Positions 6,485-32,680 of a stretch of 33,808 bases of DNA are shown in pieces. Position 1 is the first letter of the stretch. Every line of letters begins with the position of its first letter. The notes beneath the pieces were generated by a model. The model was given only the letters and a program-made list of their open reading frames with translations. It searched no databases and was not told the origin of the DNA. Both the position numbers and the translations under genes were made by a program. The stretch spans positions 1 through 33,808 of the IMG/VR virus record IMGVR_UViG_3300011445_000051. One strand, written 5' to 3'. The stretch is from a virus.

Positions 6485-6880
6485 CTAGTCGCTGAAGAAC
6501 GTATGCGCCCCGATTTTAACGAGTTTATTTTCTTCCTTAGCCCAAGTTGGTCGGGTCGCCAATACGGATAGGTTGCAATATAACACGGCACCCATAGTCA
6601 AACCAGTGTCTCTGCTTTGATTCCAAGCGCGTATGCAGTCTTGGACTACAGGGTCCATATCGTTTAACTTCAGCGCCCGTATTAGGTAAGCCCTATCTTC
6701 CCACCCAGAGAATTGCCAAGGTCTTGCCACGGTGCCGGCTACGGTGCCATCGCTTGAGTAGTTGCGCAGCATACGGTTACGGATTACTTCGCCAACCGCA
6801 ACCTTGCCATTGTAAGACTCACCAGATGCCTCTTGCCAGATGGTGATAATTGCCAAGGCATCAGGATTGACAACATTCAT
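6485..6880 (-). CDS. SleB-type cell wall hydrolase (endolysin), 131 aa
   Basis: Matches the Hydrolase_2 / SleB family: a catalytic-type Glu in IWQEASGES (14-22), then GKVAVGEVIRNRML, then the conserved WQFSGWED region, then a long helix, and IGAHTFFSD at the C-terminus. Related enzymes cleave the glycan strand of peptidoglycan. The start is the ATG at 6880, which overlaps the previous stop; an upstream in-frame TTG at 6895 is also possible. No signal peptide is seen, so it should need a holin to reach the wall. It is the last gene of the late block, next to several small membrane proteins, which supports the lysis role. Confidence 0.85.
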   Translation of the reverse strand: MNVVNPDALAIITIWQEASGESYNGKVAVGEVIRNRMLRNYSSDGTVAGTVARPWQFSGWEDRAYLIRALKLNDMDPVVQDCIRAWNQSRDTGLTMGAVLYCNLSVLATRPTWAKEENKLVKIGAHTFFSD

Positions 6881-7158
6881 TGGACTAACCGGCAACCATC
6901 GGCAAACTTAGGGTTGAATTGACTCTCCGCCGGCATTATCAGCCAGATCGCCATGCCCGACGGTGGGGGACCTGATACCTGGGTGCAGGAATAAACCTTT
7001 TGGTTTTGCTTGCGGTACTCAGCCACCTGCTCAGGTGTGAGCGATTGCCCTTGCCCGAGCGCGTTGCCTATCAACATCCCGGTGCAGCCGGGGAGAAGCG
7101 CCACGATGATAAGCAGCGCAGCTAGAAGAAGCAAGTTTTCTAGCCAGGGTTTAGTCAT
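6877..7158 (-). CDS. Small lipoprotein, possible outer-membrane spanin, 93 aa
   Basis: Starts at the ATG at 7158, eight bases inside the previous gene. Residues 9-24 are a signal sequence ending in the lipobox LLPGC with Cys 25, so the product should be lipid-anchored, either inner or outer membrane. The mature part is about 69 residues with a short helical region (LTPEQVAEYRKQNQK) and two more Cys. Position directly before the endolysin fits an Rz1-type spanin, but it is not proline-rich and is longer than most Rz1 proteins. Confidence 0.65.
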   Translation of the reverse strand: MTKPWLENLLLLAALLIIVALLPGCTGMLIGNALGQGQSLTPEQVAEYRKQNQKVYSCTQVSGPPPSGMAIWLIMPAESQFNPKFADGCRLVQ

Positions 7159-7273
7159 GGAAGTGAGACAGGAAAAACTCATTGATGGAGCTTCGTTCCT
7201 CGGGTGTCAGGGGTGTGGCGTCGGGGAGTATTTCTTTCGCCAGCACTATCCATAAAAGCCATGCTTCAATCAT
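7151..7273 (-). CDS. Hypothetical lysis-region protein, 40 aa
   Basis: A 40-codon frame from the ATG at 7273 to TAA (7153-7151). It overlaps the preceding 51-aa gene by eight bases and the lipoprotein gene by eight. It starts MIEAWLLWIVLAKEILPDAT, so the N-terminus is weakly amphipathic or hydrophobic, and ends in a polar helix. It could be a lysis regulator or a partner of the lipoprotein. Support is from tight packing only. Confidence 0.45.
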   Translation of the reverse strand: MIEAWLLWIVLAKEILPDATPLTPEERSSINEFFLSHFHD

Positions 7274-7421
7274 TGCCTTCTCTCCGTGCCATCCGGAACA
7301 GCATCACCACAAAGACCACCACCACCAAGACAAACAGTAGCATGATAAGCAGCATGTGACTATCGAAATAAAGCGACCAGTAACCGACGGCTAGATAGTA
7401 AAGCTGGTCGGTGACCGGCAT
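7266..7421 (-). CDS. Small membrane protein of lysis region, 51 aa
   Basis: The ATG at 7421 overlaps the previous TGA (TGATG), and the frame ends at 7266. After a 20-residue aromatic start, residues about 22-43 are one long hydrophobic span (HMLLIMLLFVLVVVVFVVML) followed by RMARREGND. The short basic cytoplasmic tail gives a single-span topology. A holin-like or pinholin-like role is possible from context; no family match is claimed. Confidence 0.55.
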   Translation of the reverse strand: MPVTDQLYYLAVGYWSLYFDSHMLLIMLLFVLVVVVFVVMLFRMARREGND

Positions 7422-7606
7422 CACCTAAAGCTAAGGGTCGGCCCGTACCCGCCCAGGATACCGACGATCCACAATACGCAAAGCACCACCACAACGACAC
7501 GGATTATCTTCAGCAGAAAAGGGTCGGTGACAAGCTGCGATGCCACCCACCACAACAGCGCCAAAAGGATGACTGCAATTAACAGGGGAATGATAGGTAT
7601 GACCAT
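7421..7606 (-). CDS. Two-span small membrane protein, Thivi_2564-like, 61 aa
   Basis: An excellent ribosome site (AGGAGG) precedes the ATG at 7606. Two hydrophobic segments (about 2-22, PIIPLLIAVILLALLWWVAS; and 33-53, KIIRVVVVVLCVLWIVGILG) are joined by a short polar loop (DPFLL). This resembles Thivi_2564 family membrane proteins known from phage and proteobacterial genomes. In this cassette it is a good holin candidate. Confidence 0.65.
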   Translation of the reverse strand: MVIPIIPLLIAVILLALLWWVASQLVTDPFLLKIIRVVVVVLCVLWIVGILGGYGPTLSFR

Positions 7607-7615
7607 TTAAACCTC

Positions 7616-7918
7616 CTAAGTTTGCGTTGCGTCCTCTATTTTCTGACTTGCACGTCCCGCCACTTCGCCTTCGATAAGCGCCAGTTTGCGGGTCGCGTCC
7701 ACCAGCGCCGTGTGCATTCCGTTGGTGTGCTCGCGTATCTGATTGACTGCGGCCATGACAAAACCAATCCCTATCGCGACCATCCCTGCAATAATTATCA
7801 AGGAGACCAGCAGCGAGTTGGTGAGAAACGCCGACTCTTTTGCTTCGAGCGCCGCCAGTACGGCGTTGATGACAGGTTCGGGATTGTTCGCTATTTCAGC
7901 GGCAAATAAGTTAAACAT
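7616..7918 (-). CDS. Membrane protein with C-terminal helix, holin candidate, 100 aa
   Basis: Two in-frame ATGs lie at 7921 and 7918; the AGAGGTGG site fits the second better. The protein has a mildly amphipathic N-terminus (FNLFAAEIANNPEPVINAVL), one clear membrane span around 36-59 (LLVSLIIIAGMVAIGIGFVM), and a C-terminal coiled-coil-like helix (ALVDATRKLALIEGEVAGRA). The layout resembles either a holin or an inner-membrane spanin (Rz-like), with the coil in the periplasm if oriented N-in. Confidence 0.55.
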   Translation of the reverse strand: MFNLFAAEIANNPEPVINAVLAALEAKESAFLTNSLLVSLIIIAGMVAIGIGFVMAAVNQIREHTNGMHTALVDATRKLALIEGEVAGRASQKIEDATQT

Positions 7919-8226
7919 CATCCACCTCTCGGCAAAGCTGGCCGGTCGTATAGGAATTTTGGAATACAGGGAAATGTATCTACCGGCATTCTATCCCAGT
8001 CAATAGGCGACCCCTTCGGTGTGGTGTAAATGTAGATGCCGAGTTTGCTCCCGCAGATAATTTGCCCATGCTCCACGGCGCGCTGTGTGTGCGACCATAT
8101 CGTTATTCCGATGTTGAGTAGAATTAGCACCAGCAAAAAGAAGAAAAGCGCATTACCGCCAAACATGCGCAGAGTACCGCCGAATGCCGATACCTCAACG
8201 CCATCTCTGTGCGTTTCTTCTGCCAT
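7918..8226 (-). CDS. Single-span membrane protein, 102 aa
   Basis: After a 24-residue polar start (MAEETHRDGVEVSAFGGTLR) comes one strong span (about 26-44, LFFFLLVLILLNIGITIWS), then a soluble part with two Cys (IICGSKLG and FPCIPKF), which could pair in the periplasm. It is the first gene of the lysis block. It may be a holin or antiholin, or a structural anchor. Overlaps the next gene at its stop. Confidence 0.55.
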   Translation of the reverse strand: MAEETHRDGVEVSAFGGTLRMFGGNALFFFLLVLILLNIGITIWSHTQRAVEHGQIICGSKLGIYIYTTPKGSPIDWDRMPVDTFPCIPKFLYDRPALPRGG

Positions 8227-8331: not shown

Positions 8332-10431
8332 TCACGACTCCATCATCGTGTAGCTGCCCACGGTCAACCGTGGCGTGTTGGTGTAGGTGTCGATAGCCGA
8401 CCCACTGCCGTCATATATCCTAAAGTCATAGGTCGTGCCAACCGGCGCCGACGTGCTTATCTTCAGCACATACTCACACTCAGTCTCGGAGTTGTTTAAG
8501 GCGATGCTTGGGTAGTCGCTTGAGGTGCGTATCACGGCACAGGCGGTATTGCTTGCCTCGTCGCTGGTGAGTATTTCCGTGGTCGCCGTGCCCGCTGCCA
8601 CAATGTCGGTGTCTGCGGTGACGCCATGCCATGAAATAAAGTCGGCGCCCATCGCGTCCGGTGTGAGTGTGTAGGCGCCGGCGTTCTTGGAGTACCGTAG
8701 GTTATAGACGCTACCAACGGTATCGTCGCTACGAAACTTGACGCGCAGGCGGAATGCCGCGCCTGGCGGCAGGGTGATAGGCACGTTCTCGGCGCAGGTA
8801 GCGCATTGCGTGACGACCGTATTAGCCGCCCCGCGCAGCTTGAAAAACTGATAGCGCGACTGGACGACGACGTGCGCCGGCGCCGCCCCTACGTTGTTTG
8901 TGCCGCTTGCCGCCGCGTGTGTGCGGACATAAGCATTAAAGTGGCTGACGTTCACGGTACCGTTGGGGTCGCCTATTGATACGGAGTCCATGAGCGATGG
9001 CGCTGCGCTGCGCGTCATAGCATCAGTCAGGCTTTGCCCGTTGGTGACGGCTGAAGCTAGGACGACTTCGACGGTTGACTGACCGCTGATGGTCGCGCTT
9101 ACCAGCCCGCCGTTACCTAACGTCTTGGACACGCCGGCGACGACTATCGCCCAATTACCCACCGTGGGCGTTTGCAGCGTCACGTTGTTACGCGACGACT
9201 GGATAGGGCAGTCGTAGGCCGTATGGTAATGCGTCGGCTCGTCATTCTCGACGACGGATTTATTGCGCACGCATGACTCCAAGGCGCCTTGGTCCGGTTG
9301 AGTACCGACAAAGCGCCCGGTGCTTCCAGACCAAGTTCCTACTGTTGAGATTTGCGTCCCCGCGTCGATACAAGCAGAGCTATCCGATAAGCTGAAATTT
9401 CCATTGGCGGGGTCAATCATACAACCCGCCGTGGTCCGGTTTGTGGTGATAGTAACATCCGGGTCGGTGCCGCTAATTGCCGTGCCGCCGACTTGGATTA
9501 TGTTATTGGCGATGAGACACGCCGAGCCGGTGGCACAACCGCTGATGGTGATGCCGGGGACTGCCGAGGCTTCGTAAATCGTGTTGTGAAGCGCCTCGTT
9601 TGCCGTACCGTGCATTGTAATCCCGGTCGTGGTGTAATCTGCAACGATATTGTTGTGAGCGGTGTTTTTGTTGGATTGACTACCAAAATATATCCCATCC
9701 CGGTGCGTTGCCCCATGAAAATAGCTGTTGCGAATGACATTATTTGTAGGCAAAACGTAAAACTGTATCCCGTGTCCGTCGTAGTCCGTGCACTCAATAT
9801 GCTCCATGATTGAGTTGTGCCCTGCCCAATAAAGGCAATGCGCCCCCGGCTGGTGGTCGGCTGTGCTCCAGCGGCTTATCTTCCCCCGGCTGATGCGCCA
9901 GCCATTCGCCGAGCTGCTTGGGCCGATTGCCGCGCCGGTGTCCACCGCTTGCCCTGCTGGTGGTCCAAGGCATTCAAAATCCTCAATGACTATGTTGGTC
10001 GTTGCCGCGCTTGAAGTGCCATCAAAACAACTCGTGCCGGTGGTGGCGTTGCTCAAATCCCACTTGAGATACTTAAAGGTAACGTTAGACCGCGCCGAGG
10101 TGAAAGCAACTCCCTTGACCGCCGTGCCGGTAGGTTGCAGCACCGGCCAACTTGCCTTGGTTGCCAATTCACCCCTGATCGTGATGCCGCTCGTTGGATT
10201 GGTGATCGTTGCGTTGGTGGTATAGGTGCCCGCCTTGACATAGACCTCGTCGCCGCTTGCCGTAGCGCAGGCAACGGCTCTAGCAAACGATCCGTAATTA
10301 GGAGTCGGGTCTGCGGTGCCGTCAATATCCGTGCAAACAGCGGAGTTACTGCCGCCACTCGACGCCCAATAGCGTGTAGCGTTGGCGTCGGTGGTTATCA
10401 GCAATGCAAGCAGAGCAAGTAGAAGTCTCAT
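8332..10431 (-). CDS. Secreted right-handed beta-helix protein, 699 aa
   Basis: Starts at the ATG at 10431, spaced properly from GAGG; an in-frame GTG lies at 10437. MRLLLALLALLITTDANA is a Sec signal peptide with cleavage after ANA. Residues about 45-320 are a parallel beta-helix: GDEVYVKAGTYTTNATI, SGITIRGEL, repeated xNxI and GI rungs (NNVIRNSYF, HNNIVADYTTTGITMHG, LHNTIYEASAVPGITISG). ACIDAGTQ...QPDQGALES (353-386) is the usual helix-end signature. The remaining 300 residues are beta-rich and of unknown fold. It probably binds or degrades surface polysaccharide. The signal peptide is unusual for a virion protein; secretion may matter. Confidence 0.7.
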   Translation of the reverse strand: MRLLLALLALLITTDANATRYWASSGGSNSAVCTDIDGTADPTPNYGSFARAVACATASGDEVYVKAGTYTTNATITNPTSGITIRGELATKASWPVLQPTGTAVKGVAFTSARSNVTFKYLKWDLSNATTGTSCFDGTSSAATTNIVIEDFECLGPPAGQAVDTGAAIGPSSSANGWRISRGKISRWSTADHQPGAHCLYWAGHNSIMEHIECTDYDGHGIQFYVLPTNNVIRNSYFHGATHRDGIYFGSQSNKNTAHNNIVADYTTTGITMHGTANEALHNTIYEASAVPGITISGCATGSACLIANNIIQVGGTAISGTDPDVTITTNRTTAGCMIDPANGNFSLSDSSACIDAGTQISTVGTWSGSTGRFVGTQPDQGALESCVRNKSVVENDEPTHYHTAYDCPIQSSRNNVTLQTPTVGNWAIVVAGVSKTLGNGGLVSATISGQSTVEVVLASAVTNGQSLTDAMTRSAAPSLMDSVSIGDPNGTVNVSHFNAYVRTHAAASGTNNVGAAPAHVVVQSRYQFFKLRGAANTVVTQCATCAENVPITLPPGAAFRLRVKFRSDDTVGSVYNLRYSKNAGAYTLTPDAMGADFISWHGVTADTDIVAAGTATTEILTSDEASNTACAVIRTSSDYPSIALNNSETECEYVLKISTSAPVGTTYDFRIYDGSGSAIDTYTNTPRLTVGSYTMMES

Positions 10432-10443
10432 ATTCACCTCACT

Positions 10444-11424
10444 TTATTGAAAGATAATCGGCGCAATGGGCCGAGCCGTTGAGTACACCGGAGTTTTGAT
10501 TGCGTACCACCAGTATTTGACGCCTGCGCTTTGCACGTTGGCGTTTAAGCCTATCGTGAAGCCGGTGGCCGTGAAGCTCTGGATAAAGTCCGTGTTGCAC
10601 GCCACGTTTGTCATAGGACACGCGAAATCGCCAGTCATGGCGGAAGTGCGAAAGATGCCGACTCCGGCGTTGGTGTCGCTCTTGACGATGACGAGATCGG
10701 GCTGAAAGCCCACGGTGATTGCCAGCCCATCTGATGGTGAGCCACCAGCGGTGTATGTGCCCGATGTTGCGTAGCCGCCTACATCCTTGATGGCAAGCGG
10801 ATAATAATCCACCGTGCCGCCCGTGCCGTCGTTGACGCGCACTGTGGTTCCAACCTCGAAGCCGTCGGCGTTGAATGCTTGAATATGATTGGTTACAACG
10901 CCTGCCGCTGTAAACAGCAAAGCCGCATCCCCCGCCATCGCACTTAAACGCCAAGCATTAGAGTCGTCGGCTTCACTAGCGATGATAACCGCGCCGGGTA
11001 GAAACGCCGGGCTTATGACAATATCCCTGTCATCTACGCTATTGCCGACATAGGTTCCCACCGCCAGATCATTATTGGCGTCGGTACCCCAGGCAACATA
11101 AAAGCAGTTGTCGGTGCCGCTGACATTGGTTGTTGAACTCCCTCCGACTTGGAATGTCCCAGTACCAAGTGACTGAATCTTGTTGGTGGTGATGCCGCCG
11201 CCACCGCCTAGGTCATCGGCACCGTCGCCCGCAATGGACGACGTTTTCATCGTTGCGTGCGTTGCGCCGTTGCACTTTATGATGATGGCGGATATGGCAA
11301 ACGAGGCGGCAGTGGAGATATTTCGGTCGTCGGCTCCGTTGCCGCTAAACATGCCGACCTCGAAGCGAAAGGCATGGACGGGTGTGGCGAGTAACAGCGT
11401 TAAAAGTATGGCGAGTAGTTTCAT
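10444..11424 (-). CDS. Exported protein with three repeated virion-type modules, 326 aa
   Basis: MKLLAILLTLLLATPVHA is a Sec signal peptide ending VHA. The mature protein is three copies of a module of about 95 residues (roughly 21-112, 122-213, 222-311), each with GxYxGN.DDRxI, a hydrophobic pair of strands (VIIxS), SAMAGD, TNxIQSF...GFxVG, and a closing YyLAIK. This matches the kind of module seen in phage tail or fibre proteins (DUF7483-like). Cysteines (CNGATH, DNCFYV, FACPMTNVAC) could form disulfides after export. Probable adhesin or surface protein; exact role unknown. Confidence 0.6.
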   Translation of the reverse strand: MKLLAILLTLLLATPVHAFRFEVGMFSGNGADDRNISTAASFAISAIIIKCNGATHATMKTSSIAGDGADDLGGGGGITTNKIQSLGTGTFQVGGSSTTNVSGTDNCFYVAWGTDANNDLAVGTYVGNSVDDRDIVISPAFLPGAVIIASEADDSNAWRLSAMAGDAALLFTAAGVVTNHIQAFNADGFEVGTTVRVNDGTGGTVDYYPLAIKDVGGYATSGTYTAGGSPSDGLAITVGFQPDLVIVKSDTNAGVGIFRTSAMTGDFACPMTNVACNTDFIQSFTATGFTIGLNANVQSAGVKYWWYAIKTPVYSTARPIAPIIFQ

Positions 11425-11427
11425 GGC

Positions 11428-13221
11428 TTAATCCGAAAGTGAAGTCACGGAATATTCCATCGTAAACCCAAGGTGGTGCAGCGTAGCCGCCGCCGTGGTC
11501 GGGTTAGCCGTGGCGTCGTACTGCCAGCGAAACTGTAGCAGGCGCGACGTGCCCGCCGTGCAAGTGCCGTTGGGCGTCACGGCTGCGGAGGTGGTCATGT
11601 CGATGGCGTTACTGCCAGTCACCGCTGCGTCGTCTATCGCTATCTCGGTCCCCCAAGTGTTGTTGATGGTGGCGGTCGCCAGTCGGCACGATGCCGCTAT
11701 GTCGCCAAACATCGAGCCGGTATCGGCGGCTGTCTGGACGTAATGGTGAGTAAAGGTCACTGTGCCGCCATCCCACGACTTTCCCATGACCGCCTCGCCG
11801 TAGATGGATGAAGCATCGTTCTCTGTGCAGATAATGGTATAGCGCGGAGCACCGCTGTTGATGGTCGCTAAGGCTGGCGACGCGCATTGCGCCGTGTCCG
11901 TGGTCAGCGATGCCGCCGGGAAGTACACGGTCTTGGTCGGCTTATATGCCGTCCCGAATGTATACTTACCGAGTTGCGATGCCGCGTCTGGGTCGATGGT
12001 CAGTATTGCCGCCGCCCCTTCGGTGTCGTAAAAGCCGCAGACTTGGTTAGTCATGCAAGTAAAGTAACGGTCTGCCGCGACGCTCGGCTCTATCACCATC
12101 TGGTTTGCGTCGGTAACGTAGACATTGATATAGACGGTGCCATTGCCGAATTGGCAGGGGTCGGCTTCGGTGCATTTGGTGGTTGCATTGCCGTTAGTCA
12201 TTACGCTTTCGAGGGTCTGCGATGAGCCGCTTACCCCTGAGAGTGCCAAGTCCCATGAACCACCACCGGCATTCCATACGCAACGGTTACGATATGTCCC
12301 GCCGCCAGTTTCACAGTCGGTTGTTGCCAGCGCGTCGGTAACGGTGACTTCTTGTCCGTCGACAGGCGTAGCGGGTAGCGTTGCCACGGTGACAAGCGGG
12401 GGTATCCAGCCCGCCGCCGCTAGTGCGCTTGACGTGGTAGCCGTCGCCGCATTGCCGCTTACGTTGCCGGTCACGTTGCCGGTCAGCGCCGCCGTAATGG
12501 TGCCTGCAGCAAAGTTGCCGCTGGCATCCCTGGCGACAAGCTGGCTTGCTGTGTTGGTGGTGGTGGCGCCATGAGCGCCGGTGCCGGTAAGCGCACTATG
12601 CGTATTCATTTCCACCTGAGTCGTTACATCGAAGCATCCCTCGACAGCGCCCGCGGCGTCCACACCGAGGGGAGCATTGCCGGCGCTACAGTTAACGCCA
12701 TTAGCCGCCAATGCCGGCACTGTGGTAATGGCTTGCCAGCTATTGTCACCGCGTAGGTAATTGGTGGCGTCCGGTGTGCCCGAGCCTAGCCGTGCTGCCG
12801 CTGCGGTGCCGGTGGTAAGTTGTGAAGCGTTTAACGCAGTCAGCCCGGCGCCGCTGCCCGTTGGCGCCACATAGTCTGTGCCTGCTGCTGCGATGGACTG
12901 GACGCCGGTGCCGGTCTGGTTCTTGACGATGCCGGTGGCAAGTACGCTCATGGCTTGCTCATTGTCCAGCCCGGCATCGGGGGTCTGAGTAATGTAAGTC
13001 GCCGTTGTTGGTGATCCTGAGCCGCTGGTATCTACGTCCACCCATGCCGCCGAGCGGTAAATGTAAAGGTGCCCCGAGGTGCGCCCGCTTACCGTGGTGG
13101 TCTGAGTGCAGACATCGCCTTCCTCTGGTCCTACCACCGTGCCGCAGTCGGTGCGCGTGTAGTAGGTGGCAAAGGCCGGTGAGGCGATAAGTAAACAGAG
13201 AAAGATTAAGAGTTTCTTCAT
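11428..13221 (-). CDS. Tail-fibre-like protein with signal peptide, 597 aa
   Basis: MKKLLIFLCLLIASPAFA is a clear Sec signal peptide (AFA then T). Residues 40-165 resemble fibre shafts, with YIYRSAAWVDV and a GSGAGLTALNASQLTTGTAA tract. Residues 226-262 contain the classic phage fibre collagen-like tract SQLVARDASGNFAAGTITAA followed by LTGNVTGNVSGNAAT. The C-terminal 330 residues hold many Cys in CETGGGTYRNRC, CTEADPC, CMTNQVCGF and similar pairs, and look like a beta-rich receptor domain. It overlaps the gp16-like gene by ATGA. A fibre with export signal and disulfides is odd; it may act from the periplasm or cell surface. Confidence 0.65.
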   Translation of the reverse strand: MKKLLIFLCLLIASPAFATYYTRTDCGTVVGPEEGDVCTQTTTVSGRTSGHLYIYRSAAWVDVDTSGSGSPTTATYITQTPDAGLDNEQAMSVLATGIVKNQTGTGVQSIAAAGTDYVAPTGSGAGLTALNASQLTTGTAAAARLGSGTPDATNYLRGDNSWQAITTVPALAANGVNCSAGNAPLGVDAAGAVEGCFDVTTQVEMNTHSALTGTGAHGATTTNTASQLVARDASGNFAAGTITAALTGNVTGNVSGNAATATTSSALAAAGWIPPLVTVATLPATPVDGQEVTVTDALATTDCETGGGTYRNRCVWNAGGGSWDLALSGVSGSSQTLESVMTNGNATTKCTEADPCQFGNGTVYINVYVTDANQMVIEPSVAADRYFTCMTNQVCGFYDTEGAAAILTIDPDAASQLGKYTFGTAYKPTKTVYFPAASLTTDTAQCASPALATINSGAPRYTIICTENDASSIYGEAVMGKSWDGGTVTFTHHYVQTAADTGSMFGDIAASCRLATATINNTWGTEIAIDDAAVTGSNAIDMTTSAAVTPNGTCTAGTSRLLQFRWQYDATANPTTAAATLHHLGFTMEYSVTSLSD

Positions 13222-16200
13222 TGTGGTGCCTCCGGAGCACTCTTTGCTGGTTCATTGGCAAACTTCCGCAACGTCAACTCCTCGTCGCGCCCCAAGCCAG
13301 AATCGTAAATCCCATACTTCATGAGATTCTCGCGTTGTTGCGGCAATAGAGAATCCAAAAGCCCTATGGAGCCAGTCACGTCAGCCTCGACTACGGCGCG
13401 TTGTTCAGGTTGCAACATCGGCAAGTATTTACCCGCACTTGACATAGCTACCTTCTTTGCTAATTCAACATTTTCGACCAGTAAAGCATTCTTTGCCAAT
13501 GTCCTACTCTTTGCCAAGTAATTCATAAATGCTTCGCGCTTGAACGCTTCGGTGCCGTCTTTGTATTCGGGCCTGTCAAGTAATTGTTTCTGAATCCCGC
13601 CATTCACGTCGCGTACCAGATTGCGATAAATCACAATCCAGCGGTCGCGCTGTTCTGGCGTCAACTCCACTGGCACAGCTTCGCCCGGCAATGCAGTTCT
13701 CAAGTCGAAGTCATCGCGCACATTGCCGCCGCCGGTCGACCACGGAAACGCCGGCATTTTGATTTGCAGCCTGTCGCCTTCGAGTTTAATCGGGTCTGTC
13801 TCCCCAGGCTTTAGGACAAACGGATTGCCGATATTGTTAAGTCCAGCCAGGAAGTCGCCGCCGATTGCCATATTCTTTCTAAGCCACTCCGAGCCTACCG
13901 CTTGCGGCACCAGTATGGGATCGCCGTAGCCGTCGCGCAGATAAGGCATCTGTTTGGAATAGCCGAACACCCTGGCGAATGGCCCCTTGCGAATGCCGTC
14001 GATAAAGCTACGCGATTCGCGCCGCACCGGGTCAAGTTCGCGCTCAATTGCCAGCCCTAATGGCCCACCAGTAGCAATGGCAGTAAAAGGTGAAGCGAGC
14101 AATTCAGCGCCGATTCGACTGATAGACTCACCACTGCGCCAAGTGCCAATGAGTTCCGAAATCTTACCGGCATTCTGCCACCATGTATTAGAGAGAACAT
14201 CGCGGGATACCACCAGACTTATAGCCGTGGCTGTCTGTTCCAGCGTCATGTCATCAAGCTGATTGGCAATCTCCGCGAAGTCTGCGTACATCTCTAGCGG
14301 CGTTGTGCCAGGCTCCGCTGTGTTAGCGAAAGAGTATTGAGTACCATCGGCAGAATGAAAACTATATGGTTGCTTGGCTGCTAAGTATGAACGCCGCATC
14401 TGCGGGTCGGTTGGCCCGCCGCCTGTACCTAGTCCGGTCTGAAATAGCGGGAAAAAGAATTGTCCAAACATATTCGCCAAGGTGAGCCGCGCAACCGCCA
14501 TGTCAGCCCGTGTGCCACCGGCTAGAATGTCCTCGTACAGACTACGGCTTGCCATCTGTAGCCCAGGTGTGCGGTTCCAGCCCCATTTGACCAAGTTCAT
14601 GCCGCTTTTAACAAACGGGAAATAAGCCGCAAGCGGCCCCCACTGCAATAATCTCTGCGCTGCTTTACCGAATGTTCCTAACTCATTCTGAAAAGTTGCA
14701 TGATTGGCAATGTCAATGGCGCGTTCTTGGTTCTCCAAGGTCGGCATGATACGCCTGCGCGTAACGTAGTCGATATACTGTTTAGACCCTGGCTTGTAAC
14801 CAAGGTGCGCCGCATCACGAAACGCCGATGCCCACACCTCACCGTTGTATGCTAGCGCCTTACCGAAGGCGTCCAAGCCACGGACGTTATCAGAGCCGAA
14901 GTTGATTGCTCTGCCGAATGCGCCGCCTATCTGGTGAATCGGGAAATCCAAGCGCCCTTGTGCCTGTGAATTGACTTTGAAAGCGTCGAGATAAGCCTTG
15001 GATGCTTCAGCCATCGCCATACGATGGCCCATCATAAAGGCAAAGCCTTCGCCTTGCACAAGCCCCTTCTTGTCACTGAGCGTAAAGAATCCACCGACTT
15101 CTTTTTCAAGCACGTTTGCCACCGACCACATACTGTTGCCGATAGCTTGGCGCGTCCAAGTCACCGGACGAAGTAGCAATAGCCCGGAGAATCCTTCTCT
15201 AAATTTCTGCCATCCGGTCGCGCCTGCTTTCACGGCATCGGCGCCGATTACTTGCAGAGTTTCCAGCTTGCCCGGCTCATTAGCTAAAGCCATAACATCT
15301 TCAGCCATTGTCTGTGCGGCTGCGGTTCTGTCCATCTTCGCCATTGCTTCAGAATCCCAATGACGGAGCATTTCATTGATAGCTTTATTTGCCGGCGCCT
15401 GGTCGAAGTATTTCACCACACGCCCGCCCGTGACGTTGGTAGTGCGCATTTGAGTTGTCAAACTGAACATGTCGAGGGTATCGGTCAGAAACTTATCGAC
15501 CGTTTCCGGCTTGGTAGGGTCGAACGCTTTTGTAGTGGCAACCCATTGGCCTACCGGCGTTGCCGCTTTGTTAGCAGTCCCGAGGGCTTGCAAATAAGCC
15601 ACTACATCGTCATCGTTTATGCGTTTACCAGGGAATAATGCGCGAATGTCATCCGGCGTAAGCCCTAACTTCTCGGCTTCCTTTGTCGCCATGGCAAAGG
15701 ATTTCGTTTCCGTTATGCCTTCGAGTTTCTTCTTGATTGCGTTGAACTCATCCCAAAATGTCTTGGGAATGTCCGATGCTGGCGGGAGTTTCAACGCATC
15801 GGTGGACACGCCCGGCAATGCCACACCGTCAGCCGCGAGTCCCTGCTTGATTGCATCGTCGGCTAGTTTCTCGGCTTGCGCTAACTTCGCTGCTTCATCG
15901 GCTGCCGCCGCCGCTGCTTTAGCCGCCGTCTTAGCTTCCTTTGCCGCGCCTATGGCTTGTACGCCTTTAGCAAACGACTTCGCCATAGTGCCGACTGGAA
16001 CGAAGCCGCTGCCTACATCGGTTGCAATGCCTATCACGGTTGCTAGTCCCTGCGGCGCCCCGGCATCAAGCGCCCAATGCTTTGCTACCGCCCCGTTTAC
16101 TTCGCCGAATGCTGTCAGCGGCGCCAACATCAATTGAATCTCACGCCACATTAAACGAAACGGTAAAGCCAGATTCTTGCCAACGCTTTTCTCGGGATCG

Positions 16201-16427
16201 TGCTTGCTGGCAAGGTCGACAAACTCGTTCCAGTTTTCAGTGACATGCTTGATGGTTTGCGTGAAATAGGTTTTCAACATGCCCTGCTCGCCAATGAGTT
16301 CGTCAAGATTCATGGCGGCAAGCCGGCGCATCTTATCGTTACGTTCGCCCACGGTAATGTACTTCTGCCGATAGGCGTCGTTGATGTCCTCTGGCGTAGG
16401 ACGGTCCTGCTTTTGTAATTGTGGCAT
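13218..16427 (-). CDS. Large internal virion protein, gp16-like position, 1069 aa
   Basis: A large, soluble, mostly helical protein. The N-terminal 180 residues contain TPEDINDAYRQKYITVGERN. Residues about 165-200 are an Ala/Lys-rich helix (AAKEAKTAAKAAAAAADEAA). The middle carries long helices, and the C-terminus ends in a charged helix region (LGRDEELTLRKFANEPAKSA). Size and order (after the gp15 analogue, before fibres) match T7 gp16, the ejection-core protein that enters the host envelope. I see no lysozyme-type motif at the N-terminus, unlike T7 gp16. Start ATG at 16427 overlaps the stop of the previous gene (TAATG). Function inferred from order and size. Confidence 0.6.
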   Translation of the reverse strand: MPQLQKQDRPTPEDINDAYRQKYITVGERNDKMRRLAAMNLDELIGEQGMLKTYFTQTIKHVTENWNEFVDLASKHDPEKSVGKNLALPFRLMWREIQLMLAPLTAFGEVNGAVAKHWALDAGAPQGLATVIGIATDVGSGFVPVGTMAKSFAKGVQAIGAAKEAKTAAKAAAAAADEAAKLAQAEKLADDAIKQGLAADGVALPGVSTDALKLPPASDIPKTFWDEFNAIKKKLEGITETKSFAMATKEAEKLGLTPDDIRALFPGKRINDDDVVAYLQALGTANKAATPVGQWVATTKAFDPTKPETVDKFLTDTLDMFSLTTQMRTTNVTGGRVVKYFDQAPANKAINEMLRHWDSEAMAKMDRTAAAQTMAEDVMALANEPGKLETLQVIGADAVKAGATGWQKFREGFSGLLLLRPVTWTRQAIGNSMWSVANVLEKEVGGFFTLSDKKGLVQGEGFAFMMGHRMAMAEASKAYLDAFKVNSQAQGRLDFPIHQIGGAFGRAINFGSDNVRGLDAFGKALAYNGEVWASAFRDAAHLGYKPGSKQYIDYVTRRRIMPTLENQERAIDIANHATFQNELGTFGKAAQRLLQWGPLAAYFPFVKSGMNLVKWGWNRTPGLQMASRSLYEDILAGGTRADMAVARLTLANMFGQFFFPLFQTGLGTGGGPTDPQMRRSYLAAKQPYSFHSADGTQYSFANTAEPGTTPLEMYADFAEIANQLDDMTLEQTATAISLVVSRDVLSNTWWQNAGKISELIGTWRSGESISRIGAELLASPFTAIATGGPLGLAIERELDPVRRESRSFIDGIRKGPFARVFGYSKQMPYLRDGYGDPILVPQAVGSEWLRKNMAIGGDFLAGLNNIGNPFVLKPGETDPIKLEGDRLQIKMPAFPWSTGGGNVRDDFDLRTALPGEAVPVELTPEQRDRWIVIYRNLVRDVNGGIQKQLLDRPEYKDGTEAFKREAFMNYLAKSRTLAKNALLVENVELAKKVAMSSAGKYLPMLQPEQRAVVEADVTGSIGLLDSLLPQQRENLMKYGIYDSGLGRDEELTLRKFANEPAKSAPEAPQ

Positions 16428-17812: not shown

Positions 17813-18529
17813 TTAGATTGCAACCTCAAATGTCAGAGTACCGCCAGCCGCCGGCGCCTCATCAGTCAAGCCCACGGTGATGTCATTAGCCGTTTGACTG
17901 ACCACCTTAAACGCCGTGTGAAACGTCGAGCTAAAACCGATAATCTTGGCGTTACTGTCGTTGAGTCCATGCGTCACCACCGCCGAGATATCAGCCGGCG
18001 CCAAGACTACATCGACAACGGTATGAGTAATTGCTAAGGCTGAGGCCAGGACATTTGTGACCATATCCTCATCGGTATTCCAGCGCAGTATCTGCCCGGC
18101 TGCGGGGTCGGAAACGGTAATGTCGATACTCGTTGACGTGGTAGGGAAGTGGAGCGCCTTACGCGCCAGATAGGTCAATTCCTGGGCAAACATGGTAAGC
18201 CGGTCAAAGACTTCCTCGAATACCGATGATGGTATCGGCGCCCCTTCTTCAAGGTGGACAAGCTGAGTAAGCGCGGTCTGCCGGGTGAGAAACAACTCGG
18301 TGCCGCTTGCCAAGGCTGTAGCCAGGACTATCTGCCCACCGGCGCTGTTATTCACATACGCCGCGGCGATGGTGTAGTCAGTATCGAGTACCAACGTGGT
18401 CGGTGTCCCGCCGATAACTAATGTTTCAACCAGCATGTCGGCTTTCCTGAGTATGCGAAACGTGAAAGCGTAGTTGGTCAGTAAGCCGGTGCCGGTGTAG
18501 TGGTCTGGTGTGAAAGCAGACTGGATCAT
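17813..18529 (-). CDS. Fibre-anchor protein with T7 gp17-type N-terminal domain, 238 aa
   Basis: The ATG at 18529 overlaps the previous stop. Residues 1-140 match the phage T7 tail-fibre N-terminal domain (PF03906): YTGTGLLTNYAFTFRILRKA, then LVLDTDYTIAAAY, GGQIVLATALASGTELFLTR, and SSVFEEVFDRLTMFAQELTY. That domain attaches the fibre to the tail. The following 100 residues are a short beta-rich tail (VTHGLNDSNAKIIGFSSTFH) with no enzyme domain. It may be an adaptor onto which a separate fibre or depolymerase docks. It lies between the gp14- and gp15-like genes, which differs from T7 order. Confidence 0.75.
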   Translation of the reverse strand: MIQSAFTPDHYTGTGLLTNYAFTFRILRKADMLVETLVIGGTPTTLVLDTDYTIAAAYVNNSAGGQIVLATALASGTELFLTRQTALTQLVHLEEGAPIPSSVFEEVFDRLTMFAQELTYLARKALHFPTTSTSIDITVSDPAAGQILRWNTDEDMVTNVLASALAITHTVVDVVLAPADISAVVTHGLNDSNAKIIGFSSTFHTAFKVVSQTANDITVGLTDEAPAAGGTLTFEVAI

Positions 18530-19197
18530 GCTAGTAACCTCGCTCCCCCGCTTTTCAATGACGGCGCTGCGGCCCCGATAATGCCGCTCCAAAGGTCAGC
18601 CTCGCCCCGCCGGCGTGCCAATCTTTCCTGCTCTTTGTAACTGGCGGCGCCTATCTCCCCTTGGTAATACTCCATTTGCGATGCAATAGCCGAGTTGCGC
18701 ACACTGTCTAGATAGACCAGCATGGGCGAGCCTGAGAATGTGGTGCCCTGCGCTCCCGCCTGAGCGCGTATCTCGCCGAGTTGAGCGCGTCCAACGGCAT
18801 CTTTGATGTTCTTGTTCGCCGCGCCAACCATCCTGCTTTGCCGAGCCGCCTCTTTATTATAGGCGGCATTGGTATTGCCGGAAGCGTAGCCGCTTACGCC
18901 TTGGAGTAGAGTTGCTCCCTGTTGCAGATATTGGAGCGTCTGGCCTGCGGTAAGACCAGATGCCCCTGTTTGTGCCGCCGCTGCTGCCTGCGCTGATTCA
19001 ACAGCGGCCTGCGTTCCTACTCCCTCCGCCACCGTTGCTGCTCCCCATGATTCTGCTAATGCGCCAGCCCCCACCTCCGAAGCCGCTGCGGCCCCGCCAC
19101 CTTGAGCAAACATAGCCGCAAGCCATTCATGGCATTGATGCCGCGTGCCTAGCTGGATGGCGTCGGACATCGAGTTATCGAGTAAGTCGAAATTCAT
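18526..19197 (-). CDS. Internal virion protein, gp14-like, 223 aa
   Basis: Residues 35-110 are extremely Ala/Gly-rich, as in ejection-pore proteins (GGAAAASEVGAGALAESWGA). The C-terminal half has long charged helices with AYNKEAARQSRMVGAANKNI, then AQLGEIRAQAGAQGTTFSGS and NSAIASQMEYYQGEIGAASY, a pattern shared by gp14-like virion core proteins of T7-type phages. It would form part of the pore through the outer membrane. ATG at 19197 overlaps the preceding stop. Confidence is moderate because the gp14 family is divergent. Confidence 0.65.
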   Translation of the reverse strand: MNFDLLDNSMSDAIQLGTRHQCHEWLAAMFAQGGGAAAASEVGAGALAESWGAATVAEGVGTQAAVESAQAAAAAQTGASGLTAGQTLQYLQQGATLLQGVSGYASGNTNAAYNKEAARQSRMVGAANKNIKDAVGRAQLGEIRAQAGAQGTTFSGSPMLVYLDSVRNSAIASQMEYYQGEIGAASYKEQERLARRRGEADLWSGIIGAAAPSLKSGGARLLA

Positions 19198-19672: not shown

Positions 19673-19837
19673 TCAGCCCTTGTACTCGAATACTCCTATG
19701 TTGCCGCAATGAGAACAGCGTTTGTAAGTCGTCACGTCCTTTACCCGCCACGGCACGCGCATATTGGGGTATCTCCCCTGCGCATCCGGCATTAACTGGC
19801 GCACCTCCCCGGTGTCTGGGTTCTCGACAATAATCAT
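19673..19837 (-). CDS. Small zinc-ribbon-like protein, 54 aa
   Basis: The ATG at 19837 overlaps the preceding TAA (TAATG) and the frame ends in TGA at 19673. The sequence opens MIIVENPDTGEVRQLMPDAQ and ends with RCSHCGNIGVFEYKG, a CxxCG knuckle common in phage ribbons. Only one CxxC pair is present, so metal binding would need a dimer or partner. Sits between the Ig-like protein and the gp13-like protein; function unknown. Confidence 0.6.
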   Translation of the reverse strand: MIIVENPDTGEVRQLMPDAQGRYPNMRVPWRVKDVTTYKRCSHCGNIGVFEYKG

Positions 19838-20793
19838 TAAACCACCGGGATATTGAGAAACGACACCGCTCCTACGGCATCAACTATCGTCACGACAATC
19901 GGCACGCCGATAGGTGACACGCAACATTGCTCATCGACTATCGCCTGAGTTCTCACGTCTATGTAGGTCGTGTAGTCGACATAGCCGGCGTTGCCGTAAT
20001 TGCCGCCCACCTGACAAGCCCCGCGTGCTATCGGGAAATTGACTGTCTCGCTAAATGCCGGTGCGCCGCTCCATACCGTACCGTTGACGCCATTCTTGCC
20101 GGCAATGGCGGCAACACCAGTTACCGATCCGCTCTTACCGCCGTCCACGGTGCACTTAAAATCGTATGACACCCAACTGGTAATATCGTTAGGGTAGGTC
20201 GGTCCCGGCGTGCCTATTTCCGTGCCACCGTAATCGACCGTCACATAATGCTGCGTGTCTGCTGCCAGGTCGTCGCCGATAGGGTGCGGATAAGCGCCCA
20301 CACCCTGCACCGTCATCACCGAGCCTTCCAGCAATGGACTGGTAATTGCCCCTATGTTCATATTCAAGCCAAGACAGTCGAGCGACCGTAGAAATGTCTG
20401 CGTGACTATCTCTGTCTTCATCGGCTCACCGCTGCCCAGGCAAGGCGATAATCCGGCGCAGTCATTACACCCGTACTGCAACACCGGCTGAAAGAAGTTT
20501 ATCAGTGCGCCTAATTCATGGATCGCTAGCGTTGCCGTGCGCGTGCCCGTAACCGTCAGGAATCCCCCGGTTGCCACCCAGATAAACGGCGGTGCCCCGC
20601 CCTCTATAGTTAGCTCAAGCGAGTAGTCGGCAAATGTGCAACTAAGAGCCAGCTTATTGCCGCTAATTGAAAGTGGCGATATCGGGCAAGGCGGGTCCGG
20701 GCAAGCCACTGGCCCCTGCGGTTCGCCGCATAGCGTCGGGTCGCTGCCGCCGCCGGTAAAGGTATTCCAGCCTATTGGTGTCTGTACCGCCAT
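19837..20793 (-). CDS. Beta-rich, cysteine-rich virion-region protein, 318 aa
   Basis: A predicted beta-sandwich-type protein with no catalytic motif. It has a Cys-Pro-rich beginning (CGEPQGPVACPDPPCPISPL), a strand region (LALSCTFADYSLELTIEGGA), and more Cys later (YGCNDCAGLSPC and QCCVSPIGV). The Ile-Gly-rich ends and repeated bipolar strands fit a tail or adhesion module. It lies right after the nozzle gene. Not secreted (no signal peptide). Might decorate the tail; unrecognised family. Confidence 0.55.
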   Translation of the reverse strand: MAVQTPIGWNTFTGGGSDPTLCGEPQGPVACPDPPCPISPLSISGNKLALSCTFADYSLELTIEGGAPPFIWVATGGFLTVTGTRTATLAIHELGALINFFQPVLQYGCNDCAGLSPCLGSGEPMKTEIVTQTFLRSLDCLGLNMNIGAITSPLLEGSVMTVQGVGAYPHPIGDDLAADTQHYVTVDYGGTEIGTPGPTYPNDITSWVSYDFKCTVDGGKSGSVTGVAAIAGKNGVNGTVWSGAPAFSETVNFPIARGACQVGGNYGNAGYVDYTTYIDVRTQAIVDEQCCVSPIGVPIVVTIVDAVGAVSFLNIPVV

Positions 20794-20794
20794 G

Positions 20795-23700
20795 CTACAC
20801 CTTCTTGAACATCAGCATGTGCGAGTCTTGGTGCACCACCAAGGGAGTCGCGTTGGTCACGTTCTGCGCCACTTGGAACGTCAAGTTGCCGGCGTTGGCG
20901 CCGTTACGCACCGTGAAGTGGAACACGCCGGAGGTATCGAAACCCGCCGATACCGAGTAAACGAGTTCAGTCGATAAATCGTAAGCTAGGTAGCCATAAG
21001 AGGCGTCGAACCATTTGCCCTCTGCCAACGCAGGACCGACAAACGTAAACTTCATATCGGGGGTCGCGCTAGCGCATTCGTAGCGCAAGACTACATGCCC
21101 GACGTAGGTGGCGTTGGCTTCCATCAACAGCGACATATCGGTGTCGGTCAGCGTGTCGTTGGTCAGGTTCAAGTCTGCGGCTTGGTTTGCAATCATGGCT
21201 TCCTCTTCTACTGGCGGGGTTATTGTTCCGGCATCGACTATCTGGATAGCGGCTACGCATTCATTGGCAATGGAAATATCGGTGTCAAGCACGATCCAGG
21301 TAATGATCGGCACGCCATTGACCGATATGGTGTAACTGTCGGCGTTGGTATCGCTCGCCTCTATCCTGAGAATATCGCCCTGCACCAAGGTTGCCGCCAC
21401 TGAGGTCAGCACCGTGCCGATGGCGGTAAGCGGCTGGTTCTGGTACAGCACCAAGGCAATCACGTTCTGGTCCGGTAAGTACAATGCCGCCAAGCCTGTG
21501 AATGCCAGCTCGTCAGCCGTAGTCGTTACCCGGATAGCGATACCCGCCGCCTCGGTGCCGTCGTCATACATCATCTGAGCAAACTGCCCGAACGGGCAAG
21601 TATGCCCGCATTCCCGCGAGAAGCTGCCGAATACCGCAGCGTTGTTGTCCGTAGCGTTATCGCCAAAGCCGGGATTCTCGTCCACCGTTTCACAGCACCA
21701 TTCCGTGCCTATCTCCAGGTCGCCGACGATATTCATCACCTCTGCCGGGAATGGCAAAGTCTGTTTGAATGACACCCGACAGAATGGATTGTAATTAGTC
21801 TGCTCGGTACATAATTTACCCTCTTGGAGCGGGATAGCCGCGTCCATGGGGTGATCGGGTCTGAGTATCGGCAAGCCGACATTGGCGCTGTCGTCCACGT
21901 TGAGAGTCAGCCCTGGTCCCGCCCTGCGCACGCGCATACCTAGCGCCTTCCAGCGCCGGCACATAAACATGCCGCCCTGCTCAGGCGGTATCAGCGGCTC
22001 GCATGTCAGCCCTTCGGACTCGTAGGCAAGCCCGTACTCCACCTGACCTACGGTAATGGCAGGCTCAAGGGTAAATTGCCCGCCGGTCACTACGGCATCG
22101 CTGAATAGCATACCGTCGCCAACGACTTTAACCGTGGCGCCCTCTAGGTGGCCGGCGCCGGTAACAACCAGGCTGGTATTAGGGACCGCCACCACCGCGC
22201 AGTCAGTCTGAAGGCTGTGCCACTCACGATTAAGGTCGGCATCCGGTTCCATGTGTTCGATGAAAGTCTCGGTCACGCCGTTAATGTCCCGCTCGATACT
22301 GGCCCAAAGCCAGTCCTTGCCGCTGGAGGGTCGGGGTATGCAGGCAACGCTGGTCACTTCGCCGGTAGTCGGGTGAGTCGACCATGCAATGACGTTCTCG
22401 TCCTCTTGGTAGGTCAGCGCCAAAAGCATTCCATCGTCGCGCACTAGCCAAACAATCGAGTCGGGTTCCTGTTGGAATGCCGCGTCCATCAGGGAGTTAT
22501 CTTCGGTCAGGTGCTCGGCTAAGGTAAGAAGCGAAGGCGACTTGAACTTGTCGGTTACGAAATCAAAGACCAGCTCCCTGATTTTCTTCTGTCCAAACTG
22601 CACATGAATAAGCTGCCCGCCGATACGGATAGGCGGGATGTTGGCGCTACCTCTGCTTGAGATAGGCAACACCGTGAAGTCTGAAGGTGATAGCGCCTTG
22701 CCAGGGGTCGATGCCGTTACCTCATACGCGCTGCCGCCGGTGCCTACTTGGAGCGAGCGCACCGCCTTAATCCAACGGATAGGGTTTACCTGGTCGTCGT
22801 CAATGGTGCGCTGGATAGCATCGTCGGCATTGGCGCCCTTTGAGAAGTTCTCGAAGTCGCCGCTTACGCTGCCGTTGATAGTCTGTCCCTTGCACAGCCA
22901 CATACGCGACTGGAAGAAGCAGCCGCACACCGGATAACCGAGCACGTCGCTCCATGCTTCGACCTCGATGCCCCATACCGTCGTGCTTGGCGGGTCGCCA
23001 TACGGTAAGCCGCTGGCCGGATCGTTAGGCACGTCAATAAGCGTATTCAGGATGACGCCGTTCATCTTGGCGCCATTGATATAGGCGGTGAGCTTTATCA
23101 GCCCGCCGTATATCGTCATGTACTTGTTGACATCGGACGGACGGAAAATGTTAGCGCCGGCGTCTAGTCCCACGCCTTGCCCGGCAAGCCGATTGGTAGG
23201 GTCTACGGCTATGGCGCCAAAGCCCTCGAAGTGCCATTCGTCCTGGGCTATCGACGTGCCGATAAAGTCGCTGACAACATCGGCGACGAGGATATTGGCG
23301 GAAGTAAAGGCGGTAATGACAGCCCTGCCGGCGGCGCTTACCAGTGTGCGCCCAACATCGCCGTTAAGCCAACATGCGTTAGCCGCCGTGATGGTGATAC
23401 CGTCGCCGGTTACAGCCGAGAGCGTCAAGGTGGCGCTGTTAAGTTCGGTGCCGGTAGGCGAGTCGAGACTGGTTGCCGGCGGGTTAAACGATACCGCGCT
23501 TAAAGTGAACTCATCAGGCGAGACCGCTATTCTGGCGAGCTTCTGCACCGGGTAAATGCCGGTGCAGAGATACATGACATCGGCGCTTTGAAAGCTGCCT
23601 ATCTTGATAAGGTCCAGGTCGGCAATGCCGAACGGGGTCACTAGCTCATGGGGAATTGCCGGGTTAACCGGGTCCATGAGCGGAACGCCGTCTTTGAAGA

Positions 23701-23983
23701 ATCGCACATAGAAGTCGCCGAACTCAAGCATGTAAGCTTGAGTTGACGAGAAGCGGAAGTCTATCAGCCTGACATCGGCATTCTCCAGCCCGCTATATTT
23801 AGCCTTGGCGCTATAGGCAAACCCTTCACGCCGCTTGACACCGCCCATGGTAACGGGGAGCCAGTTTCGAAGGATACGGCAAGCCGACGAATACTTCTCG
23901 GTCTTGTCCTGGCGTGCCTCGAAACGCGGGGAGACTTCGCCGACATTGAGCGCAAAGTTAATTCTGGAGACATTGAACGCCAT
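20795..23983 (-). CDS. Tail tubular protein B / nozzle-like, 1062 aa
   Basis: The N-terminus has the nozzle signature: NVGEVSPRFEARQDKTEKYS, then ILRNWLPVTMGGVKRREGFA. This G-x-x-SPR...R-x-D...Y...N...GG...RR-G pattern is typical of podovirus tail nozzle (gp12) proteins. A central region has WHFEGFGAIAVDPTN, PVCGCFFQSRMWLCKGQTIN and GGQLIHVQFGQKKIRELVFD. The C-terminal third (about 700-1062) is rich in beta sandwich sequence and probably extends the nozzle or holds an Ig-like domain. Larger than T7 gp12 (about 790 residues). It is coupled with the gp11-like gene by TGATG, the usual order. Confidence 0.75.
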   Translation of the reverse strand: MAFNVSRINFALNVGEVSPRFEARQDKTEKYSSACRILRNWLPVTMGGVKRREGFAYSAKAKYSGLENADVRLIDFRFSSTQAYMLEFGDFYVRFFKDGVPLMDPVNPAIPHELVTPFGIADLDLIKIGSFQSADVMYLCTGIYPVQKLARIAVSPDEFTLSAVSFNPPATSLDSPTGTELNSATLTLSAVTGDGITITAANACWLNGDVGRTLVSAAGRAVITAFTSANILVADVVSDFIGTSIAQDEWHFEGFGAIAVDPTNRLAGQGVGLDAGANIFRPSDVNKYMTIYGGLIKLTAYINGAKMNGVILNTLIDVPNDPASGLPYGDPPSTTVWGIEVEAWSDVLGYPVCGCFFQSRMWLCKGQTINGSVSGDFENFSKGANADDAIQRTIDDDQVNPIRWIKAVRSLQVGTGGSAYEVTASTPGKALSPSDFTVLPISSRGSANIPPIRIGGQLIHVQFGQKKIRELVFDFVTDKFKSPSLLTLAEHLTEDNSLMDAAFQQEPDSIVWLVRDDGMLLALTYQEDENVIAWSTHPTTGEVTSVACIPRPSSGKDWLWASIERDINGVTETFIEHMEPDADLNREWHSLQTDCAVVAVPNTSLVVTGAGHLEGATVKVVGDGMLFSDAVVTGGQFTLEPAITVGQVEYGLAYESEGLTCEPLIPPEQGGMFMCRRWKALGMRVRRAGPGLTLNVDDSANVGLPILRPDHPMDAAIPLQEGKLCTEQTNYNPFCRVSFKQTLPFPAEVMNIVGDLEIGTEWCCETVDENPGFGDNATDNNAAVFGSFSRECGHTCPFGQFAQMMYDDGTEAAGIAIRVTTTADELAFTGLAALYLPDQNVIALVLYQNQPLTAIGTVLTSVAATLVQGDILRIEASDTNADSYTISVNGVPIITWIVLDTDISIANECVAAIQIVDAGTITPPVEEEAMIANQAADLNLTNDTLTDTDMSLLMEANATYVGHVVLRYECASATPDMKFTFVGPALAEGKWFDASYGYLAYDLSTELVYSVSAGFDTSGVFHFTVRNGANAGNLTFQVAQNVTNATPLVVHQDSHMLMFKKV

Positions 23984-25727: not shown

Positions 25728-25728
25728 C

Positions 25729-26451: not shown

Positions 26452-26454
26452 AGT

Positions 26455-26775
26455 TTATCTTAATTTGTTGAACGCCTGTAAAATCGCCGCCTTGACGTTG
26501 CTGACACTTGAATCAGTATCGAGTTTGCTTTGCACGGATAACAGTTCGTTGAATGCTTCATGCGCAATCGTATCAGTCGGAAAGCCGTATTGAATTCTAA
26601 TTTCGGCATAGTGCGCATCAGCAGAACCATCGCCATCAATCATCAATTGCATGTTGGCGATTTCGTTGTTTAGTCCATCGGTTCCGTAAAGAGCCGAATT
26701 TAGATTTCCCATGATGTTATTGAGCCGAATCGAACGAGACTTACTTGGATCGTGTGGTAAATATGTGAATGCCAT
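26455..26775 (-). CDS. Hypothetical small virion-region protein, 106 aa
   Basis: The ATG at 26775 has AGGAGGG at ideal spacing. Starts MAFTYLPHDPSKSRSIRLNN and is mostly helical and acidic, with a long helix at the end (VSNVKAAILQAFNKLR). It may be a short tail or baseplate accessory. Sits between a small ORF and the LamG gene. Family unrecognised. Confidence 0.6.
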   Translation of the reverse strand: MAFTYLPHDPSKSRSIRLNNIMGNLNSALYGTDGLNNEIANMQLMIDGDGSADAHYAEIRIQYGFPTDTIAHEAFNELLSVQSKLDTDSSVSNVKAAILQAFNKLR

Positions 26776-26783
26776 GTGCCCTC

Positions 26784-27566: not shown

Positions 27567-27568
27567 CG

Positions 27569-32456: not shown

Positions 32457-32464
32457 CGAATCAC

Positions 32465-32677: not shown

Positions 32678-32680
32678 AAC

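Follow-up and report, generated by a model that had tools for sequence, protein, structure and literature searches.

Three consecutive fibre-like proteins with Sec signal peptides in a T7-type podovirus: a possible exported cassette acting around lysis

The fibres of virions are taken to be cytoplasmic proteins. Why do three consecutive fibre-like proteins of one phage begin with signal peptides for the Sec pathway? We addressed this question for a 33,808-nucleotide stretch of viral DNA, the window in the following, which is the whole record IMGVR_UViG_3300011445_000051. An initial annotation had placed three consecutive open reading frames of 597, 326 and 699 residues there, and this was borne out: transcription runs along the minus strand from the 597- over the 326- to the 699-residue protein gene. 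Our preferred reading, to which we assign a probability of about 0.45, is that the three genes travel together as a mobile cassette and encode fibre-tip proteins, exported by Sec and stabilised by disulphides, that would mask or strip receptors around lysis.

Signal peptides, cysteines and domains of the three proteins

The genes, their signal peptides and a fourth candidate lie at the following positions.

11428-13221, minus strand: 597-residue fibre-like protein with modular repeats, a conserved C-terminal domain of ~350 residues and 14 cysteines in the mature form
13168-13221, minus strand: its Sec signal peptide, residues 1-18, cut after AFA, with a GGAGG ribosome-binding site before it
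10444-11424, minus strand: 326-residue protein with three repeats (by eye), a DUF7483 / phrog_24898 tail fiber match and 4 cysteines in the mature form
11371-11424, minus strand: its Sec signal peptide, residues 1-18, cut after VHA
8332-10431, minus strand: 699-residue protein with an N-terminal right-handed β-helix, a conserved C-terminal domain and 16 cysteines in the mature form
10378-10431, minus strand: its Sec signal peptide, residues 1-18 counted from the ATG at 10431, cut after ANA
30630-31094, minus strand: fourth candidate, a short β-rich protein with 4 cysteines in the head-side block and a less clean signal peptide

All three N-termini are short, positively charged and strongly hydrophobic and end in A-x-A, i.e., they follow the design of Sec substrates of signal peptidase I (SPI). 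They read MKKLLIFLCLLIASPAFA^TYY for the 597-residue, MKLLAILLTLLLATPVHA^FRF for the 326-residue and MRLLLALLALLITTDANA^TRY for the 699-residue protein, the last starting from ATG 10431, with GTG 10437 as an alternative. The cleavage regions SPAFA^T, TPVHA^F and TDANA^T contain no lipobox with a cysteine at +1. We scored the N-termini with a home-made tripartite scorer, not SignalP, which scored 12 of 13 E. coli signal peptides. The three proteins reached 14.2, 13.1 and 13.8 (597, 326 and 699 residues, respectively), which on this scorer is the level of the OmpA class. Shuffling their first 60 residues gave such scores 0, 1 and 0 times of 2000, and shuffled N-termini of window genes of at least 150 residues were called in 16 of 5000 cases (~0.3%). 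Among genes of at least 200 residues from seven cultured phages, 3 of 98 were called, all of them plausible real signals. The signal peptides initially proposed, with AFA, VHA and ANA cleavage, hence stand far above shuffled N-termini. Good ribosome-binding sites were found at two of the three starts, and the only nearby alternative ATG after a signal is Met25 of the 326-residue protein. A release resembling that of signal-arrest-release (SAR) endolysins was dropped because the A-x-A sites are clear.

Signals were also present in every relative found, with different sequence and the same design. Codon changes within them mostly keep signal character (I/L, F/L, C/F, V/A), and the mature start FRFEVG is invariant in all five homologues of the 326-residue protein. 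In contig L005, the homologue of the 597-residue protein has its N-terminal 140 residues exchanged for the type found in L014 and L020, and a signal peptide still stands at the start. The signals are therefore kept in all relatives of the window's own families. Relatives starting downstream of the hydrophobic segment, a case raised in the initial annotation, were seen only in the wider family of BcepC6B gp19, where these forms are poor in cysteine. Judged by these sequence comparisons, the signal peptides are real and under selection.

Two of the proteins had been called cysteine-rich, which holds for the 597- and 699-residue proteins with 14 and 16 mature cysteines compared with 4 in the 326-residue protein. 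In the 597-residue family, the homologues have 14, 18, 10 and 10; in the 699-residue family, 16 and 14. All five members of the 326-residue family have 4 each, and the homologue of the fourth candidate has 2. The mature count was even in 15 of 15 window-cassette members and fourth-candidate homologues. Paired cysteines are usual, not obligatory, in Sec/SPI-exported proteins, and even counts that shift in steps of two would be the pattern expected of disulphide-bonded exported proteins.

As to their domains, the description "fibre or β-helix" fits the three proteins unequally. Only the 699-residue protein is a β-helix by its Pfam Beta_helix match (E 1.1e-13), and it had no PHROG match. The 326-residue protein matched DUF7483 with 28.0 bits (cut-off 27, E 1.5e-6) and phrog_24898, "tail fiber", with E 1.1e-13. 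For the 597-residue protein, no family was matched in Pfam and PHROG profile searches; its residues 228-257 match cyanophage structural proteins. In tblastn searches against cultured phages, the 699- and 326-residue proteins found no match and the 597-residue protein a 30-residue repeat only, and sequence searches of the PDB gave weak matches only. An AlphaFold2 model of the 699-residue protein from four sequences was of moderate quality over the N-terminal 250 residues (predicted local distance difference test, pLDDT, mostly 55-85). It is a β-helix with Pel9A and alginate epimerase/lyase as best Foldseek matches and, lower down, the Dettilon tailspike. The model of the 326-residue protein (pLDDT 33) was not used.

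The fourth candidate at 30630-31094 carries a signal, ...LLVVLVMYGFAALMMNRPADA^QIY, as initially suggested, though a longer and less clean one; a relative of similar shape occurs in contig L023.

Cassette mobility and a wider family of signal-bearing fibres

Two types of siphovirus whose tails are unrelated have the window's genes as well, at 73-88% DNA identity. L005 is a siphovirus of the gene transfer agent (GTA) type, where DUF2460, phiJL001 Gp84 and tape-measure genes neighbour the cassette. In L014 and L020 the cassette adjoins a gene for a lambda J-like tail protein (phrog_31, E 3e-56). The genes flanking the cassette are unrelated among the three tail types. As these genes occur in phages with unrelated tails, they appear to move as a cassette, and their intact exchange among three tail architectures makes it unlikely that the proteins depend on one specific virion socket.

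Just upstream of the cassette in the two different siphoviruses, the DUF2460 protein of L005 (2264-3169) and an unrelated 250-residue protein of L020 (4222-4974) have a C-terminal domain of ~80 residues in common (FTLSQ.PD..LLFCFG, by eye). A further contig, L006 (12286-13884, minus strand), encodes three consecutive signal-peptide proteins of 225, 145 and 166 residues, of no known family, on the strand opposite to its structural genes.

Comparable proteins exist in cultured phages. Burkholderia phage BcepC6B gp19 and Xanthomonas phage PBR31 orf035 resemble the window's proteins in their Sec signal, fibre-like repeats, even cysteine count and gene position, i.e., between tailspike or internal virion genes and the holin. 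They differ in being encoded by a single gene instead of three and show no sequence similarity: the tip motif of their family, TAGDW..RARRVR, was not seen in the three window proteins, and the likeness is architectural only. Both are annotated as tail fiber or structural protein. The genome section on PBR31 mentions a signal peptide on the gp40 esterase only and does not discuss gene 35. Bradyrhizobium phage ppBdUSDA122-1 has, like the window, consecutive signal-bearing proteins (WAX24264 and WAX24263), one of them annotated as tail fiber, with even cysteine counts over the whole protein (6 and 18) and with domains different from those in the window; we found no paper on these genes. Tandem signal-bearing fibre genes also occur in L066, L067, L088, L089, L092, L098 and L107.

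We compared signal-bearing and signal-less forms within the BcepC6B gp19 family, using 83 complete genes from viral contigs and genomes; 80 of at least 435 viral relatives were read. With the same C-terminal tip domain, 48 forms bear a signal and 35 do not. MKKLIA, one of two search patterns, favours signal-bearing genes, which biases this proportion and leaves the cysteine contrast unaffected. Among 71 non-redundant members (nr90), at least two cysteines were present in 40 of 44 signal-bearing compared with 7 of 27 signal-less forms, with densities of 8.5 and 2.1 per 1000 residues, respectively (p=1.5e-9, kinship ignored). The cysteine count of signal-bearing forms was even in 32 and odd in 9. 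On a tree of the tip domain we counted 22 signal gains or losses, compared with 21.7 for shuffled labels, and at least four lie across well-supported branches. The tip domain is swapped between signal-bearing and signal-less N-termini about as often as random labels. For instance, the tips of a 305-residue signal-bearing protein (L066) and an 832-residue signal-less tailspike with a pectate-lyase-like middle (L133) are nearly identical. Anchored virion fibres of two other phages, Klebsiella phage KpV74 and Pectobacterium phage Gaspode, terminate in this domain too.

In bacterial genomes of the family of Paraburkholderia dilworthii, the tip domain was found in 31 of 398 (about 8%). Here, 19 of 24 complete genes bear a signal, two of the 19 being recognised after start correction, and the front of one further gene resembles a signal but lacks a start codon. 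The contrast in cysteines was not significant in this sample (p=0.16), because signal-less forms are few and some are miscalled. A check in Lessievirus (BcepIL02, and JC1, for which virion proteomics exists) was uninformative: in the BcepIL02 fibre block, four of five proteins have no signal, and gp62 scored a marginal 9.1 and has no basic signal-like start.

Signal-bearing members of this family also lie just before a pair of genes for 227 and 504 residues (L076, L105, L109, L124, L130 and L135), and some of these adjoin a capsid-like gene, i.e., the head module and not the tail module.

Export of the three window proteins is very likely, since their signals are kept, their cysteines are even in number and signal and cysteines are associated in the related family. 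The initial annotation had them periplasmic or secreted before lysis. The periplasmic part agrees with signals and cysteines; secretion before lysis does not, as Sec leads to the periplasm only and we saw no sign of passage through the outer membrane. The roles it suggested, as decoys, depolymerases or receptor blockers, are putative.

Gene neighbourhood in the window

The window's remaining tail and lysis genes are arranged as follows.

20795-24597, minus strand: T7-type tail tube pair, A (phrog_394, E 4e-31) and B (phrog_376, E 3e-140)
17813-18592, minus strand: 259-residue protein with a T7 gp17-type tail-anchoring N-terminus (phrog_1640, E 5e-25) and without a large receptor-binding part
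13218-16427, minus strand: 1069-residue protein where the last internal virion protein would be expected, by position compared with BcepC6B and HTVC203P
6485-8226, minus strand: presumed lysis region, directly downstream of the three genes
7918-8226, 7616-7921 and 7421-7606, minus strand: short transmembrane proteins of this region
6877-7182, minus strand: lipobox-like protein of this region
6485-6895, minus strand: cell wall hydrolase (PF07486) of this region

The tail tube pair sets the virion type as a T7-type podovirus. An internal virion protein (phrog_418) lies in the same minus-strand module, and a 461-residue protein and the 1069-residue one lie where the large ejection proteins would be expected. 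The stop codon of the 1069-residue gene overlaps the start of the 597-residue gene; its protein has no cysteine and no signal peptide, and a search for its relatives found none. The three genes follow the last internal virion gene and precede the presumed lysis genes; they occupy the tail-fibre slot, which annotated tail fibres fill in BcepC6B, HTVC203P and HTVC010P, distant cultured relatives by tail tube protein. A T7 gp17-type anchor of the phrog_1640 type was matched in none of the three proteins and is present on the separate 259-residue protein. Promoter and terminator scans gave background level, and among the bacterial genomes searched for a host, none encodes the 326-residue protein.

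Other genes nearby deserve mention. Beside the tail tube gene, and inside the virion module, a 318-residue protein (19837-20793, minus strand) has 12 cysteines (38 per 1000 residues) and no signal peptide. A 403-residue protein (24594-25805, minus strand) contains 66-nucleotide repeats encoding LNLEAGSYAITGADLT-type units, and the front part of its reading frame overlaps the LamG gene. Three proteins without signal peptides are encoded between the tail tube genes and the head genes (25729-29660, minus strand): LamG-like (25729-26451), phrog_2804-like (27865-28449) and pectate-lyase-like (28449-29660). They could possibly be head fibres or else the phage's actual receptor-binding proteins. A cluster of small metabolic genes, among them glycosyltransferase-like and methyltransferase-like ones (31091-33596, minus strand, by eye), adjoins the head-side signal-peptide gene.

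Possible roles at lysis

The exported proteins consist of fibre, β-helix or lectin-like modules and contain no known virion-anchoring domain; most likely, they would act as anchor-less glycan- or receptor-binding proteins. Made late together with the tail genes, they would cross the inner membrane, lose their signals and be oxidised in the periplasm, apart from virion assembly in the cytoplasm. As Sec reaches the periplasm only, any action before lysis would take place at the outer membrane's periplasmic face, and action outside would begin with lysis. At lysis, or just before it, they may bind or cut host glycans or receptors and so spare progeny from adsorbing to the dying cell, its debris or neighbours that are infected already, an end that T5 Llp reaches by different means. 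Llp, an exclusion protein of the periplasm, acts on FhuA, and such exclusion proteins are held to keep phages from adsorbing to lysed fragments as well (PMC9586334). Llp and Cor resemble our proposal in being phage-encoded, exported and proposed to spare progeny useless adsorption (PMC9586334). Llp is, however, a small lipoprotein and blocks a single transporter of the outer membrane, whereas the window's proteins are large, fibre-tip-like and without lipobox. In vitro, a receptor-binding protein in free form can stop phages from adsorbing; that protein has no signal peptide (PMC12946066).

Several points weigh against receptor masking by exported proteins. The signals were called with our own scorer and not with SignalP, and correcting the association of signal and cysteines for kinship leaves four well-supported independent pairs only. 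Signal-less forms with the same N-terminal module occur in L116 and L121, so export is not indispensable everywhere. Moreover, the window has no other obvious receptor-binding protein on its gp17-type anchor, which keeps room for a virion role.

Such a role is the alternative that survives best, even if we regard it as rather unlikely: the proteins would end up as virion fibres, having been exported, folded and oxidised in the periplasm and then docked onto released particles at or after lysis via the short anchor protein of the gp17 type or proteins equivalent to it. This would suit the tail-fibre slot, the tail fibre labels of relatives in PHROG and the 259-residue anchor protein with its missing receptor-binding part, and in L116 signal-less versions with the same N-terminal module come after the tailspike gene. 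T7 gp17-type fibres and P22-like tailspikes have fibre modules in common with the window's proteins, the β-helix with the 699-residue protein, and the tip domain within the BcepC6B gp19 family. Such fibres and tailspikes, however, acquire their fold in the cytoplasm and are anchored to the virion by an N-terminal domain, whereas the window's proteins have a signal peptide and no recognised anchor. The cassette also occurs with three unrelated tail types and no shared adaptor moves along with it, and a complete anchored tailspike already precedes the exported gene in BcepC6B, PBR31 and several contigs. We know of no precedent for docking of fibres from the periplasm after lysis.

It is less probable still that the proteins are released glycan depolymerases or lectins serving as public goods, which would clear capsule or slime at lysis for progeny spread without blocking receptors. 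Bacterial right-handed β-helix enzymes are normally Sec-exported, and in its signal peptide followed by such a helix the 699-residue protein, alone of the three, resembles secreted polysaccharide lyases like Pel9A (1ru4). Its low-to-medium confidence model places the N-terminal half near Pel9A, alginate lyase/epimerase and the Dettilon tailspike. Unlike Pel9A, it has an extra C-terminal phage domain and lies in a phage tail module, and any catalytic residues of it are putative. The 326- and 597-residue proteins and the BcepC6B gp19 family contain no enzyme domain, and lysis frees cytoplasmic enzymes too, so that export would be needed for folding only.

That the N-terminal segments are uncleaved membrane or virion-docking helices, or that the genes start downstream, is very improbable in spite of the signal-less homologues in the wider family, given A-x-A sites with fixed mature starts, the ribosome-binding sites, the lack of nearby ATG starts after the signals other than Met25 and the even cysteine counts.

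Returning to exported receptor blockers, our searches of the open-access literature brought up no account that treats tail fibres with signals as a class. PHROGs already hold such proteins as "tail fiber", phrog_33320 even matching through the signal region; the sequences are hence not new, only the interpretation is, i.e., fibre modules rerouted through Sec. As a more tentative generalisation, a second set of fibre tips, destined for export, may be widespread among tailed phages of Gram-negative bacteria; it would supply receptor blockers or strippers of the phage's own making at lysis and spread between unrelated phages as cassettes. Equally tentatively, this set would consist of receptor-binding domains from virions that have been joined anew to Sec signals, have gained disulphides and accumulate in the envelope. 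If true, automatic annotation as "tail fiber" hides envelope-acting proteins, and such genes should not be assumed to encode receptor-binding proteins in host prediction. It would also suggest a directly testable way in which phages that lack Llp-like lipoproteins keep their progeny off debris.

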